64,000 bases of DNA. Source: Thioalkalivibrio sp. ALJ3 (GTDB taxonomy: Bacteria > Pseudomonadota > Gammaproteobacteria > Ectothiorhodospirales > Ectothiorhodospiraceae). A program made the position numbers and the translations under genes. Every line of letters begins with the position of its first letter. Positions within the stretch are counted from its first letter, which is position 1. The stretch spans positions 554,586 through 618,585 of the forward strand of contig NZ_KB897905.1 of NCBI RefSeq assembly GCF_000377205.1, given 5' to 3'. This document shows positions 54,458 through 59,378 of the stretch, piece by piece. Under the pieces are notes generated by a model. That model ran no database searches and was not told the DNA's origin. It saw nothing but the letters and a program-made list of their open reading frames with translations.

Positions 54458-54572
54458 GCGGCGGGTTCCTCGTGTCGAAGGCCAAGCGTAACGGCCGCCC
54501 CGGGTCCGTACAAATGGTCGTGGCCTGAGACGGGGCTGTAGAATGGCGCGCACCTTCCGTACGGATGCCGCA

Positions 54573-57293
54573 TTGATGCCACAACCACCCCTTGTCCTGG
54601 TCGACGGCTCGTCATATCTGTTCCGGGCCTTCCATGCCCTACCGCCGCTGACCGCGCCGGATGGCGCCCCGACCGGGGCGATGATCGGTGTGGCGAACAT
54701 GCTGCGCAAGCTGCGCGCGGACTACGGCCCGGAACACATGGCGGTGGTGTTCGACGCCAAGGGCAAGACCTTCCGCGACGACATTTACCCGGAATACAAG
54801 GCCACCCGCCCGCCCATGCCGGAGGAGCTCGCGGCCCAAATTGAACCGCTGCATGAACTGGTGCAGGCCATGGGGCTGCCGCTGCTGTGCGTCGAGGGGG
54901 TGGAGGCCGACGACGTGATCGCGACCCTGGCCGACCAGTCGGCCCGCGCCGGGCACGACGTGGTGATCTCGACCGGCGACAAGGATCTCGCCCAGCTGGT
55001 GAATGACCGCATCACGCTGGTCAACACCATGAGCGGGGTCACACTGGACCGTGAGGGCGTGCAGGAGAAGTTCGGCGTGGCCCCGGAGCAGATCGTCGAC
55101 TACCTCGCTCTGATGGGCGACAGCGTCGACAACATCCCGGGCGTGGACAAGGTAGGCCCCAAGACCGCGGCCAAGTGGATCGCGACGTACGGCGACCTCG
55201 ACACCATCCTGGAACAGGCCGGCGATATCGGCGGCAAGATTGGCGAGAACCTGCGCGCCGCGGCCGACCGCCTGCCCACCTCGCGGGAGCTGATCACGGT
55301 CAAGCGCGATGTCGAGCTGGACGTCGGCCCCGACGATCTCAACATCCGCGAGCCGGATCACGGGCGCCTGCTGGAGATGGTGCGCCGCTACGGCTTCACC
55401 CGCTGGCGCGCGGAGCTGGAGGGTGGCGAAGCCGAGGCCGGCGACAGCGCCGACAACGGGGGCAATCCGGGCCCGTCCCAGGCGAAGGGCGACTACCGCA
55501 CGTTGCGCGAGGAGACCGAACTGGCCGAGCTGCTGGAACGCCTGGACAAGGCCGACCGGGTCGCCTTCGACACCGAGACCACGAGCCTGGATGCCATGCG
55601 CGCCGAGATCGTCGGCATGTCCTTCGCCTTCGAGCCGGGCACCGCGTACTACCTGCCGCTGGCCCACACCGGGCCGGATGCCAAGCCGCAGCTGCCACGC
55701 GAGAAGACGCTCGAGCGCCTGAAGCCGTGGCTGGAGTCGGAGCGCCACGGCAAGCTGGGCCACCACCTGAAGTACGACCGCAACGTGCTGGGCAATCACG
55801 GCATCACCCTGCGCGGCATCGTTGACGACACCCTGCTCGAGTCGTTCTGTCTGGATGCCGGAGCCAACCGCCACGACCTGGACTCCCTGGCCGAGCGTCA
55901 CCTGGACTACCAGACCACGCACTACGAGGACGTGGCCGGCAAGGGGGCCAAGCAGATCCCGTTCGCCGAGGTGGATATCGGCATCGCCACCGATTACGCC
56001 GGCGAGGATGCCGACATCTGTCTGCAGCTGGATGCGGTGTTCCAGCCGCGCCTGCAGGCGGCCGAAGGCCCAGCATTTGTCTATCGCGAGATCGAGATGC
56101 CACTGGTCCCGGTGCTGGCGGATATCGAACGCGTGGGCGTAAAGGTGGACCCGGACCTGCTCGGCGAGCAGAGCCAGGAGCTGCTGGCCGAGATGGAGCG
56201 CATCGAGCGCGAGGCCTTCGAGGAGGCCGGCGGCGAGTTCAATCTCGGCTCGCCCAAGCAGATCCAGGAGATCCTGTTCGAGCGCCTGGGCCTGCCGGTG
56301 CTGCGGCGCACGCCCAAGGGCCAGCCCTCCACCGCCGAAGACGTGCTGGAGCAAATGGCGGACGACTACCCCCTGCCGCGCCTGATCCTCGAGCACCGCG
56401 GCCTGTCCAAGCTGCGCAGCACCTACACCGAGACCCTGCCCCGGCGCATCCACCCGGAGACCGGGCGGGTGCACACCTCCTACCACCAGGCGGGGGCGGC
56501 CACCGGGCGGCTGTCATCCTCGGAGCCGAACCTGCAGAACATCCCGGTGCGCACCGAGGCCGGCCGGCGCATCCGCCGCGCGTTCATCGCCGAAACGGGC
56601 CACCAGCTGCTGGCGGCGGATTATTCGCAGATCGAGCTACGTATCATGGCCCACCTGTCGCAGGATGCCGGCCTGCTGAAGGCCTTTGCCGAGGGCCAGG
56701 ACATCCACCGCGCGACCGCCGCCGAGGTCTTCGGGCTGGACTCGGAACAGGTCTCCGGCGATCAGCGTCGCGCGGCCAAGGCGATCAACTTTGGCCTGAT
56801 CTACGGCATGTCCGCCTGGGGCCTGGCGCGCAACCTCGGCATCGAGCAGGGCGAGGCGCGCGAGTACATCGAGCGCTACTTCAAGCGCTATCCCGGCGTG
56901 CACGACTATATGGAACGGGCGCGCGCCTCCGGGCGCGAGAACGGCTACGTCGAGACCCTGTTCGGCCGCCGCCTGTACCTGCCGGAGATCAACAGCCGCA
57001 ACGGGGCGCGACGCCAGCAGTCCGAGCGCGTGGCCATCAATGCCCCGATGCAGGGCACCGCCGCCGACATCATCAAACGCGCGATGGTGGGGGTCGCGAA
57101 CGACCTCGCAGGGGCGAAGATCGATGCCCGCATGATCATGCAGGTCCACGACGAACTGGTGTTCGAGGTGGCCGATACGTCGGTGGACGACCTGACCACG
57201 CTGGTGCGCAAGGCCATGAGCGGGGCCGCCGATCTCGAAGTGGAGCTGGTCGTGGACGTCGGTGTCGGCGCCAACTGGGACGACGCCCACTAG
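54573..57293 (+). CDS. polA: DNA polymerase I
   Basis: 906 aa from the ATG at 54573, where homologues start (MPQPPLVLVDGSSYLFRAFHA). An in-frame ATG at 54543 overlaps a TAGAAT -10-like hexamer, so it is less likely. All three domains are present: 5' nuclease (to about 290), 3'-5' exonuclease with an intact VAFDTETTSLD motif, and polymerase motifs DYSQIELRIMAHLS (A), RRAAKAINFGLIYG (B) and VHDELVFEV (C). Roles in Okazaki processing and repair. The stop TAG is the first codon of the dispersed motif. Confidence 0.96.
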   Translation: MMPQPPLVLVDGSSYLFRAFHALPPLTAPDGAPTGAMIGVANMLRKLRADYGPEHMAVVFDAKGKTFRDDIYPEYKATRPPMPEELAAQIEPLHELVQAMGLPLLCVEGVEADDVIATLADQSARAGHDVVISTGDKDLAQLVNDRITLVNTMSGVTLDREGVQEKFGVAPEQIVDYLALMGDSVDNIPGVDKVGPKTAAKWIATYGDLDTILEQAGDIGGKIGENLRAAADRLPTSRELITVKRDVELDVGPDDLNIREPDHGRLLEMVRRYGFTRWRAELEGGEAEAGDSADNGGNPGPSQAKGDYRTLREETELAELLERLDKADRVAFDTETTSLDAMRAEIVGMSFAFEPGTAYYLPLAHTGPDAKPQLPREKTLERLKPWLESERHGKLGHHLKYDRNVLGNHGITLRGIVDDTLLESFCLDAGANRHDLDSLAERHLDYQTTHYEDVAGKGAKQIPFAEVDIGIATDYAGEDADICLQLDAVFQPRLQAAEGPAFVYREIEMPLVPVLADIERVGVKVDPDLLGEQSQELLAEMERIEREAFEEAGGEFNLGSPKQIQEILFERLGLPVLRRTPKGQPSTAEDVLEQMADDYPLPRLILEHRGLSKLRSTYTETLPRRIHPETGRVHTSYHQAGAATGRLSSSEPNLQNIPVRTEAGRRIRRAFIAETGHQLLAADYSQIELRIMAHLSQDAGLLKAFAEGQDIHRATAAEVFGLDSEQVSGDQRRAAKAINFGLIYGMSAWGLARNLGIEQGEAREYIERYFKRYPGVHDYMERARASGRENGYVETLFGRRLYLPEINSRNGARRQQSERVAINAPMQGTAADIIKRAMVGVANDLAGAKIDARMIMQVHDELVFEVADTSVDDLTTLVRKAMSGAADLEVELVVDVGVGANWDDAH

Positions 57294-57310
57294 GGAAACA
57301 CCGACTAATG
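57291..57310 (+). repeat. Copy of the dispersed motif on the polA stop codon
   Basis: TAGGGAAACACCGACTAATG begins with the polA stop and runs into the ATG of the next gene at 57308. It is the same motif and orientation relative to the stop codon as at 52495 and 49040. Confidence 0.6.
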
Positions 57311-57805
57311 TTCACCCACCGTTTCAACCGGATTGCCGCCTGGCTGGTGGCCCTGCTGCTGCTCGCGACGGCCTGGGTTCTGGCCGACCGTTACCTGGAT
57401 GATGGCGGCTCGGTGGGTCTGCCGGTGGTCCAGCCGGAGGCCTGCGATCTGAATGCCGGGTCATGCACAGCCGAGTTAGCCGAGGGAGGCACGATCACGC
57501 TCGCCATCAGTCCGCGGCCTGTACCCATGCTGAGCGAGCTCCAGTTGCAACTGGTGCTGGATCAGCAGGCGCAGGAGGTCCTGGGGACGCACGATACGCT
57601 GGAACTCGATCTGGCGGGCGTGGAGATGTTCATGGGCTACCAGCGCCCGACACTGGAGCACACCGGCGAAGGCCGGTACCACGGCACGACCACCCTGCCG
57701 ATCTGCGTGACTGAATCCATGACCTGGGCCGCCACGGTCATGCCCGCTGGCGCCCCGGACGAGGCCTTTGCACAATTCCGTTTTGTCACGGCGCGCGATC
57801 ACTGA
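57308..57805 (+). CDS. Membrane-anchored FixH/YtkA-like protein before SCO
   Basis: 165 aa. One N-terminal helix (IAAWLVALLLLATAWVLADRY) anchors an outside domain. It has a cysteine pair (ACDLNAGSC) and a FixH/YtkA-like pattern (GVEMFMGYQRPTLEHTGEGRYHGTTTLPIC). This fold sometimes binds copper with Met and His side chains; M and H are abundant here. The neighbour SCO gene, 10 bp away, makes copper handling for cytochrome oxidase plausible. It is an inference. Confidence 0.65.
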   Translation: MFTHRFNRIAAWLVALLLLATAWVLADRYLDDGGSVGLPVVQPEACDLNAGSCTAELAEGGTITLAISPRPVPMLSELQLQLVLDQQAQEVLGTHDTLELDLAGVEMFMGYQRPTLEHTGEGRYHGTTTLPICVTESMTWAATVMPAGAPDEAFAQFRFVTARDH

Positions 57806-57815
57806 TGAGTCCGTT

Positions 57816-58463
57816 ATGAACCGTATACCCGTCAGCAGTCTGTTCTGGGCCTTCGCGGTGGTCGCCGCCGGAGCCCTGCTCGTGTACGTCACCCTGGAGC
57901 CGGGCGAGCCGCCGGCGCGCGATTTCGCGGGTCACGCACAACTGCCCGTTGCCGACGACGTACGGGGCGGACCCATCGAGCTGCCAGTGGCGACCCACGC
58001 GGAGCGCTTCGACCTGGACGACTACGCGGGCCAGTACGTCTGGCTGTATTTCGGCTATACCAGCTGCCCGGACGCCTGCCCGACCAGCCTGGGCTGGATT
58101 GGCGGGGCGCTGAACCGCCTGCCGGACGACATGCAGGGCCAGGTGAACGGCGTGTTGATCAGCGTCGACCCGGAACGTGATACCGAAGACCGTATGGCGG
58201 ATTACGTGGGCCATTTTCATGCCGACATGCACGCGGCGACCGGGCCCGAGGACGACTTGCGGCCGGTGGCCGAGCGTTATGGCGTCTACTTCGAGCGCCA
58301 TGCAACCGATTCCGCCATGGGCGATGTCATCGACCACAGCTCGTCCACCTACTTGATCGGGCCCGATGGCGAACTGCTGGAAATCCACCCTCACGGGACC
58401 AGCGCCGCCGAACTGGTCGAGTCCCTGCTGGGGCACGCGCAGTCCGGGGAAGACGCTGATTAA
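57816..58463 (+). CDS. SCO1/SenC family copper chaperone
   Basis: 215 aa from the ATG at 57816. One N-terminal membrane helix (SSLFWAFAVVAAGALLVYV) anchors a thioredoxin-fold domain. The copper site is complete: CPDAC (CxxxC, in GYTSCPDACPTS) and the later His in DHSSSTYLIGPDGE. It delivers copper to the Cu-A site of cytochrome c oxidase or reduces its cysteines. The upstream FixH-like gene is a likely partner. Its C terminus (GAAGACGCTGATTAA) partly resembles the dispersed motif. Confidence 0.93.
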   Translation: MNRIPVSSLFWAFAVVAAGALLVYVTLEPGEPPARDFAGHAQLPVADDVRGGPIELPVATHAERFDLDDYAGQYVWLYFGYTSCPDACPTSLGWIGGALNRLPDDMQGQVNGVLISVDPERDTEDRMADYVGHFHADMHAATGPEDDLRPVAERYGVYFERHATDSAMGDVIDHSSSTYLIGPDGELLEIHPHGTSAAELVESLLGHAQSGEDAD

Positions 58464-58570
58464 GGGGTGATTTCTTGTTGCCTGGCGCACGCGCTCAGGA
58501 GTGTGAAGCCAGTCACGGTCATTTAGGCGAACCGGTGGAACTCCAGCCGACAAACGCTTTCATATTCTAC

Positions 58571-58683
58571 AAGCGCTCTAGCCCAGCGCGAGCCCGCTTC
58601 TCTCCCTGAGCGGGCAGGCCTCGCTCCCCCCTGTCGAGGCCGAATCTTGCCCCGGTCCCACCCCAAGGCCGGGGCATTTTTTT
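58571..58683 (+). ncRNA. Candidate small RNA in the polA-engB locus (Spot 42/ErsA position)
   Basis: The 259-bp gap between SCO and engB has no supportable gene but ends in a strong terminator: TGCCCCGG (58648-58655) pairs with CCGGGGCA (58669-58676), followed by T7. Upstream a sigma-E-like promoter is possible, GGAACT at 58537 and TCATA at 58560, spacing 17. Between them GCCCGCT / AGCGGGC (58592-58615) forms a hairpin with a CU-rich loop TCTCTCCCTG. Predicted transcript about 113 nt. The same locus holds Spot 42 in E. coli and the sigma-22-dependent ErsA in Pseudomonas, which gives synteny support only. Confidence 0.45.
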
Positions 58684-58722
58684 GTCTGGGGTTCATGGTT
58701 CGCGTCCGAAGGCGGGCCGCGG

Positions 58723-59337
58723 TCAGTCTGCAGCCGGTTGGAGCCACTCAGTCAGCAGACCGCGCAAATCGTCGACCCCCTGATTCTTCAATGAAGAAAA
58801 GGTCTGCAAGGTCGCTTCTACCCCCAACCCTTCCAGCTCGCGCTGGGTCGCGTGCAACTGTTTGTCGGCCGCCTGCCGCGAGAGCTTGTCAGCCTTGGTC
58901 AGCAGGCAATGCAACCGACAGCGGTCCAACGGCACCCATTCCAGCAGCTGACGGTCAAGATCGGTCAGGGGACGACGGATGTCCATGATCAGTACCAGCC
59001 CTGCCAGGCACTCGCGCGACTGCAGGTAATCCCCCAGCAGCCGATCCCAGCGCTGGCGCTGACCTGCGGACACCTTCGCGTAGCCATAGCCGGGCAGATC
59101 CACCAGTCGCCAGTCGTCCCCCGGAGGAAGTGCGAACAGATTGATCTCCTGGGTACGCCCCGGCGTGCGACCCACCCGAGCCAGGGCCTTGCGACCGCAC
59201 AGGGCATTCAGGGCGCTGGACTTGCCGGCATTCGAACGCCCGGCGAAGGCGATCTCGATGCCGTCATCCTCCGGGAGCTGTTCGACCTGGGCCACGCCAC
59301 GCAAAAAGCGGGCTTCACGGAATTGGGGTTCGGACAC
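58723..59337 (-). CDS. engB: Ribosome biogenesis GTPase EngB (YihA/YsxC)
   Basis: 204 aa from the GTG at 59337, with AGGAACG nine bases upstream; this fits the usual 200-210 aa. A longer frame has no RBS. The G motifs are GRSNAGKSSALNALC (G1), GRTQEINLF region (G2), DLPGYGYAKVS (G3), TKADKLS (G4) and SSLKNQGVDDL (G5). It is needed for 50S assembly. It is divergent from cytochrome c4 and converges on the candidate sRNA. Confidence 0.94.
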   Translation of the reverse strand: MSEPQFREARFLRGVAQVEQLPEDDGIEIAFAGRSNAGKSSALNALCGRKALARVGRTPGRTQEINLFALPPGDDWRLVDLPGYGYAKVSAGQRQRWDRLLGDYLQSRECLAGLVLIMDIRRPLTDLDRQLLEWVPLDRCRLHCLLTKADKLSRQAADKQLHATQRELEGLGVEATLQTFSSLKNQGVDDLRGLLTEWLQPAAD

Positions 59338-59378
59338 GAGAGAGCGTTCCTTGGCCGAGTGCGGTGCTCGGGATATTT

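Follow-up and report, generated by a model that had tools for sequence, protein, structure and literature searches.

Three separately named small RNAs stand closest to the element described here. Transcription of ErsA, from Pseudomonas, is sigma-22-dependent. The RNA targets mRNAs; Hfq takes part for several of them but not for amrZ (PMC8575079, PMC5819304, PMC8395346). A review terms ErsA a functional orthologue of Spot 42 (PMC8395346). Repression by sX13 of Xanthomonas relies on three C-rich loops, which pair with G-rich motifs close to start codons, and is independent of Hfq (PMC3771888). The Burkholderia RNA anti-hemB, or ncS04, is seen in Northern panels and is an independent transcript (PMC4603805, PMC5688073). 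It co-purified with Hfq (PMC4603805), and in Table 2 of PMC5688073 none of the conditions changes it significantly.

In openly licensed PMC papers we found no account of anti-hemB, ErsA and sX13 as one family with a mostly sigma-E-type promoter, and none of these papers mentions two of the three names. In a survey of ncRNAs in 50 genomes, Thioalkalivibrio included, engB and anti-hemB are absent from the main text (PMC11109978).

The window, by which we mean the whole stretch of 64,000 nucleotides that was analysed, holds an element that is a homologue of an already described family. An earlier note on this DNA had proposed a third, unannotated member or functional analogue in the Spot 42/ErsA locus. 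The nearest described relative is Burkholderia anti-hemB (Rfam RF02837), so that there is no unlisted third kind.

A predicted small RNA between an SCO-like reading frame and engB

The intergenic gap at 58464-58722 (259 bp) is flanked by the stop of an SCO-like reading frame (58463) and by the stop of engB on the minus strand (58723). The name SCO is the label of the earlier note; NCBIfam gave no match for this frame. The features in and around the gap are:

54543-57293, plus strand: polA, upstream of the RNA (NF004397 and TIGR00593 over cut-off)
57308-57805 and 57819-58463: two reading frames that separate polA from the RNA in the window's genus
58537-58564, plus strand: sigma-E-like promoter, GGAACT (58537-58542), 17-nt spacer, TCATA (58560-58564), predicted transcription start at about 58571
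58571-58683, plus strand: predicted small RNA of 113 nt, homologue of anti-hemB (fold z -4.82; RF02837 46.8 bits at 58591-58683)
58573-58589, plus strand: hairpin H1, formed by 5 pairs in this copy and less certain than the other three hairpins
58592-58615, plus strand: hairpin H2 with the near-invariant, predicted anti-Shine-Dalgarno loop CUCUCCCU at 58600-58607 (fold, loop conservation, stem covariation)
58617-58641, plus strand: hairpin H3 with loop UCCCCCCU at 58625-58632 (fold, covariation)
58648-58683, plus strand: intrinsic terminator, hairpin H4 (58648-58676, C-rich loop 58658-58666) and U7 tail (fold, covariation)
58723-59355, minus strand: engB, a YihA/YsxC GTPase (TIGR03598, 220.6 bits), convergent with the RNA; provisional start codon
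59498-60121, plus strand: diheme c-type cytochrome gene, a conserved neighbour past engB ("c4-like" is our label; no NCBIfam model is over its cut-off)

All that had been read from the gap beforehand, a hairpin with a CU loop, a run of seven T (58677-58683) and GGAACT followed after 17 nt by TCATA, is found in the sequence. The CU-rich loop thus stands, at 58600-58607; its hairpin is one of four and not a single one, and C-rich loops are found in H3 and H4 as well. The 113-nt RNA folds with -56.5 kcal/mol against a mean of -39.88 for shuffled sequences, none of 200 shuffles equals it (z -4.82), and the 93-nt core of the RNA reaches a z of -5.45. The plus strand of 58571-58683 is very probably an sRNA gene with an envelope-stress-type promoter, and the earlier proposal of an independent gene of about 113 nt agrees with the sequence. 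A simple scanner reported neither a terminator nor a sigma-70 promoter at the gap; the H4 loop has 9 nt and lies outside the scanner's limit of 3-8 nt. A mechanical list of reading frames further includes a TTG frame at 58647-58988, mostly antisense to engB. Covarying stems and the absence of an ATG from the predicted transcript led us to reject a protein-coding reading of it.

No Rfam family is at or above its cut-off in the 64-kb window. When 58300-58900 was scanned permissively, RF02837 was the best match with 46.8 bits (E 8.4e-10) over the full length of the model (1-81). Since the gathering score of this family is 49.5 and the window copy is 2.7 bits short of it, we call the RNA a homologue of RF02837 and not a formal member. 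Its structure (the H2 hairpin with a CUCCC loop, a second hairpin and the terminator) and its convergence with engB are those of RF02837. The models of sX13 (RF02232) and ErsA (RF01719) give 23.7 and 17.7 bits on the window copy, both below a cut-off of 50. The locus is that of ErsA, judged by sequence, as it lies in the polA-engB interval behind a promoter of sigma-22/sigma-E type. The same interval gave 14 Rfam matches up to E 10, and the Spot 42 model was not one of them. Elsewhere in the own genome RF02837 reaches at most 22.7 bits; these places, together with two matches of our own model R1 (see below) of 32.0 and 30.0 bits, were rejected as extra copies, being without a CUCCC loop and with no PolA or EngB nearby.

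Conservation of address, promoter and structure

For the earlier note, missing conservation in close relatives would have been one ground for refutation; its reading withstands this check, as RF02837 matches 45 of the 47 genomes of the host's GTDB family (E<=1e-3; 9 of the 47 over the cut-off). In 26 of the 30 loci examined in this family, the stretch contains engB downstream of the RNA and on the other strand; L012, L013, L021 and L031 are the exceptions. The first three of these have a second RNA copy, some hundreds of bases from the first and on the other strand, and polA is convergent to the first copy. At several loci of genus g1 polA and the RNA are separated by the same two reading frames as in the window; other genera have polA directly adjacent.

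Over an even sample of the class, 142 of 369 genomes are matched by RF02837 (E<=1e-4), 20 of them over the cut-off. Outside the host family there are 138 such genomes; coordinates were listed for 128, and the other 10 were left out of the count of distances to engB. An EngB match exists in 113 of the 128 and lies on the same contig as the RNA in 92, at a distance of 2 kb or less in 83 of these and farther away in 9. RNA and engB are convergent in 78 of the 83 near pairs. Because the search for the RNA is blind to engB, this proximity is independent evidence of orthology. Of 100 further matching loci 60 were included. Across the class, engB is convergent and downstream within the locus in 41 of 58 loci; polA is often found upstream and the cytochrome gene often past engB. 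The predominant order is polA>RNA><engB, as at spf of E. coli, and hemB replaces polA in betaproteobacteria.

The promoter on its own is weak, since the same loose pattern has 25 start positions on the plus strand of the window, the candidate included; it becomes convincing, as a prediction from sequence, only by its conservation. We searched 130 nt upstream of the RNA for GAACTT (one mismatch, GAAC fixed), a spacer of 15-17 nt and TC, keeping all 118 loci, which are not independent because close relatives are among them. The pattern occurs in 95 of the 118 loci; 50 shuffles give a mean of 2.7 and a maximum of 6, and 11 of 505 control windows contain it. A spacer of 16 nt is present in 86 of the 95 loci, and 94 of the 95 boxes are located 24-42 nt upstream of H2. 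Of the 23 loci where it is missing, 14 show a near variant when inspected by eye; the other 9 show nothing of the kind. The conserved pattern resembles the sigma-E consensus, and the earlier claim of a sigma-E-like promoter agrees with the sequence, its type and distance being kept in 95 of the 118 loci. The own genome codes for Hfq and for one RpoE over the cut-off, and a box of the same promoter type is found 73 nt upstream of rpoE. Among the matches listed, named Burkholderiaceae have AAACTTT, a spacer of 16 or 17 nt and TCATA, or something weaker, and most named Comamonadaceae have no sigma-E-like box by eye. In named Comamonadaceae loci such as L183, L206 and L198 the RNA is located beside hemB; there is no EngB in the stretch examined and no sigma-E-like box.

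A first alignment (A1: 35 sequences, with the 5' hairpin) had poorly aligned stems and 12 pairs in RNAalifold, and was replaced by a second one, A2. For this, L115, L038, L042, L043, L044, L048 and L049 were removed by hand, and an identity filter then kept 58 of the 118 loci. A2 was aligned by MAFFT without structure, and the structure was written by hand with the help of RNAalifold. Double changes are seen in 18 of its 20 pairs, and the covariation of 0.321 compares with 0.167 ± 0.010 for shuffles and a maximum of 0.153 for the slid structure. A third, model-fitted alignment of 124 distinct rows (A3) has double changes in 20 of 20 pairs and a covariation of 0.415 (shuffles 0.170 ± 0.006, slid maximum 0.121). 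The counts of A2 are less biased, because A3 was fitted to the model. H1, with at least 4 pairs, forms in 115 of the 118 loci against 96.2 expected.

Three C of the H2 loop CUCCC are invariant among the rows without a gap at that place (2.00 bits); in the 5' strand of the stem, by contrast, values go down to 0.64 bits. Of 128 rows, 108 contain CTCCCT, 105 have at least four consecutive C in the H3 loop and 92 at least three in the H4 loop. A fixed CU loop on varying stems looks like a pairing seed, and CUCCC is the complement of GGGAG; the anti-Shine-Dalgarno role suggested for this loop at the outset is therefore in keeping with the sequence. The duplexfold energies of the three loops with a consensus Shine-Dalgarno string (-6.6, -7.0 and -9.3 kcal/mol) had no control and carry no weight.

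The covariance model R1, built from the 58 sequences of A2, matches 205 of the 369 class genomes at E<=1e-4 and 172 at E<=1e-7. Since its E-values are too optimistic, the 33 matches with E above 1e-7 are doubtful unless their position supports them. Strict filters in turn drop true matches: L273 of genome G410 gets 44.6 bits when searched alone, yet G410 is outside the 205. A search of named genomes with a pattern derived from H2 gave at least 120 stretches. Among the matches listed, R1 reaches at least 36.5 bits on 110 of the 120, in genera such as Burkholderia, Paraburkholderia, Cupriavidus, Variovorax, Azoarcus, Propionivibrio, Nitrosospira, Methylovorus, Vogesella, Ectothiorhodospira and Salinisphaera; the other 10, mostly from other phyla, look like chance. 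Again among the matches listed, EngB is present in 70 of the 110 stretches, always within 1.5 kb and convergent in 69 of the 70; within 1.5 kb of the RNA, HemB is found in 70 stretches and PolA in 9. In Burkholderia ambifaria (L178) the order is cytochrome gene, engB, RNA, hemB. The name anti-hemB therefore reflects the adjacent gene in betaproteobacteria.

Several loci carry more than one RNA. Tandem arrays of four copies occur at L096 and L105 and of five at L100; three copies are found in Salinisphaera shabanensis (L151) and in Endozoicomonas sp. G2_2 (L191), and two in Nitrosospira briensis (L222). All these are possibly sibling sRNAs. L038 (G152) and L043 (G306) are over the RF02837 cut-off and lie away from engB, L043 with two copies, and are maybe extra, transposed copies. 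A metagenome-assembled genome labelled Klebsiella pneumoniae (L266, CAMDRJ010000108.1) has a betaproteobacterial hemB-RNA-engB locus and is probably mislabelled or a mixed bin.

Relationship to ErsA, sX13 and Spot 42

We consider it quite likely, from the sequences, that anti-hemB, ErsA, sX13 and the window RNA are one class-wide family. We do not put this more strongly because scores alone reach noise; the claim is based on position, promoter and reciprocal matches taken together. A2, the source of R1, holds no genome of the two families in which the ErsA model (f160) or the sX13 model (f13) exceeds its cut-off, so that the ErsA- and sX13-bearing families were left out of the model. Judged by these RNAs, f160 should be the Pseudomonadaceae and f13 the Xanthomonadaceae.

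In a search of whole genomes the best R1 match is on ErsA in 8 of 8 genomes of f160 among the matches listed (33-37 bits). ErsA was identified at these places by RF01719 in seven genomes (107-139 bits) and by position in the eighth, G207. In 7 of 7 loci of f160 that were read, polA is upstream, engB is convergent downstream, and a GAACT(T/A) box is followed by TCAGA; the RNA of G207 has GAACTT and TCATA, with polA upstream. On sX13, R1 gives 38-40 bits in 3 of 3 loci. Outside the class R1 matches 18 genomes of the same phylum at E<=1e-4 with 29.6-36.6 bits. At seven of these matches (L299-L305) tblastn found no PolA or EngB, and one overlaps a tRNA; we took the out-of-class matches as noise and not as homologues. 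Since noise thus reaches 36.6 bits, the ErsA scores prove nothing without position.

In the reciprocal searches, the ErsA model matches 25 of the 369 class genomes (E<=0.01), one of them over the cut-off. The other 24 matches lie on the RF02837 place in 13 cases and on an R1 match of at least 30 bits in 20, with only 31-32 bits in G080 and G284; four (G346, G159, G265, G099) are off any RF02837 or R1 place. From the sX13 model there are matches in 16 of 369 genomes, three over the cut-off, and among the other 13 eight are on the RF02837/R1 place (G216, G128, G278, G323, G410, G182, G067, G321) and five are off it or not found on it. Two loci, L134 (G189) and L138 (G301), score with both models, with 31.6 and 29.1 bits for ErsA and 55.8 and 42.6 bits for R1. 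By eye their RNAs look intermediate, which recommends them for studying how ErsA evolved.

It could be argued that the RNA is real and related to anti-hemB, and that ErsA and sX13 are separately evolved C-rich sRNAs at the same locus. The window copy does score low with both foreign models (23.7 bits for sX13, 17.7 for ErsA), unrelated sRNAs repeatedly have C-rich loops and GC-rich terminators, R1 noise goes up to 36.6 bits, and the 4 of 24 ErsA-model and 5 of 13 sX13-model matches mentioned are off the anti-hemB/R1 places. We regard a separate origin as unlikely: the RNAs share their address and orientation next to polA, ErsA has a promoter of this type in the corresponding position, the reciprocal matches coincide in position, and two loci score with both models.

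Spot 42 is a different case. At its E. coli locus the order is polA>spf><yihA, in the same orientation, and R1 gives on spf itself 13.9 bits (E 0.017 over 28,615 bases), where R1 noise reaches 22.3 bits over 0.7 Mb. Homology to Spot 42 was tried with Rfam and R1 at the E. coli locus and is not claimed, because 13.9 bits are within this noise. Thus, from the kinship at the polA-engB address that had been suggested, the part concerning ErsA is borne out by sequence, and the part concerning Spot 42 does not go beyond the address, with no Rfam match and an R1 score in the noise. Spot 42 is controlled by CRP and is not known to depend on sigma-E. As a tentative scenario, for which we have rather less than even confidence, the gammaproteobacterial ancestor (betaproteobacteria included) may have carried, between polA and engB, a single sRNA that was driven by sigma-E and had an anti-Shine-Dalgarno loop. 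From it anti-hemB/ncS04, sX13, ErsA and the window RNA would descend, some lineages having expanded it in tandem; Spot 42 would be the same locus after a promoter switch and the loss of the C-rich H2 hairpin.

Proposed function and comparison with known systems

Probably, 58571-58683 encodes a trans-acting, CU-rich sRNA, the local copy of one old sRNA beside engB (between engB and polA, or hemB in betaproteobacteria), to which anti-hemB/ncS04 of Burkholderia, ErsA of Pseudomonas and sX13 of Xanthomonas would belong as well. The envelope-stress sigma factor RpoE would read the GGAACT/TCATA promoter, and the 113-nt RNA would end at the H4-U7 terminator. Stable stems would display the C-rich loops, chiefly CUCUCCCU of H2 with the help of H3 and H4, and these may base-pair with target mRNAs at G-rich Shine-Dalgarno or start regions and so block ribosome binding. 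Hfq would probably sit on the U tail, a step that is doubtful because sX13 acts without Hfq (PMC3771888) and so does ErsA on amrZ (PMC5819304). What the sequences themselves show is the structure with its covariation, the invariant loop, the conserved promoter, the synteny and the overlap between the models of anti-hemB, ErsA and sX13. That the RNA is transcribed in this organism, is controlled by sigma-E, binds Hfq and represses targets is what we infer: by homology with ErsA, sX13 and ncS04 it should appear under envelope stress and keep ribosomes off mRNAs with G-rich start regions.

An action by protein binding, for instance as an Hfq sponge, in place of mRNA pairing would fit the co-purification of ncS04 with Hfq (PMC4603805) and the simple C/U runs of the loops. 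It appears very unlikely to us, as the homologues sX13 and ErsA pair with mRNAs, sX13 without Hfq (PMC3771888, PMC5819304, PMC8575079), and CUCCC is the exact complement of GGGAG. The name anti-hemB hints at a cis-antisense regulator of engB, or of hemB in betaproteobacteria, and convergence with engB in 78 of 83 near pairs and in 69 of 70 named loci with EngB (among the matches listed) would be expected of one. Yet in the window the terminator would halt transcription 41 nt before the engB stop, the conserved part is the loop, and the RNA is kept when neighbours are lost: the sX13 locus L270 has polA and no EngB, and EngB is absent from 40 of the 110 named stretches among the matches listed, some of which end early. 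We give such a cis role hardly any credence. Least of all do we believe in a mere terminator, 3' UTR piece or insulator of convergent genes without trans function, for, although the terminator at the end is strong and the flanking genes converge, the RNA is kept while the upstream gene varies (SCO-like frame, polA, divergent hemB), a terminator needs neither an invariant loop nor its own promoter, tandem copies exist, and in Burkholderia ncS04 is transcribed on its own (PMC5688073, PMC4603805).

With a trans-acting sRNA of one family as the preferred reading, three separately named sRNAs fall together and one covariance model spans 205 of 369 class genomes, 172 at E<=1e-7. What is known of ErsA and sX13 turns into predictions for many genomes, and the near-invariant putative anti-Shine-Dalgarno loop behind a conserved sigma-E-type promoter offers a concrete hypothesis.

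Among the known systems, anti-hemB/ncS04 of Burkholderia (RF02837) shares with the window RNA the H2 loop, the terminator, the convergent engB and the cytochrome gene past engB. It differs in having hemB and not polA upstream and, in named Burkholderiaceae, a promoter of AAACTTT type or weaker; its length is 105 nt (PMC5688073), that predicted for the window RNA 113 nt. ErsA of Pseudomonas (RF01719), with 132 nt (PMC5819304), resembles it in the order polA>RNA><engB in 7 of 7 loci read, in its C-rich loops, in its R1 match and in a promoter of the same type, GAACT(T/A)-N16-TCA, but has no closed H2 hairpin with a CUCCC loop. sX13 of the Xanthomonadaceae (RF02232) is likewise located downstream of polA and matched by R1 with 38-40 bits, whereas no engB is present in the locus read (L270). 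Spot 42 (spf) of Escherichia coli has the address and the orientation in common with the window RNA; unlike it, the spf sequence is without the C-rich H2 loop and gives no significant match in sequence or structure.
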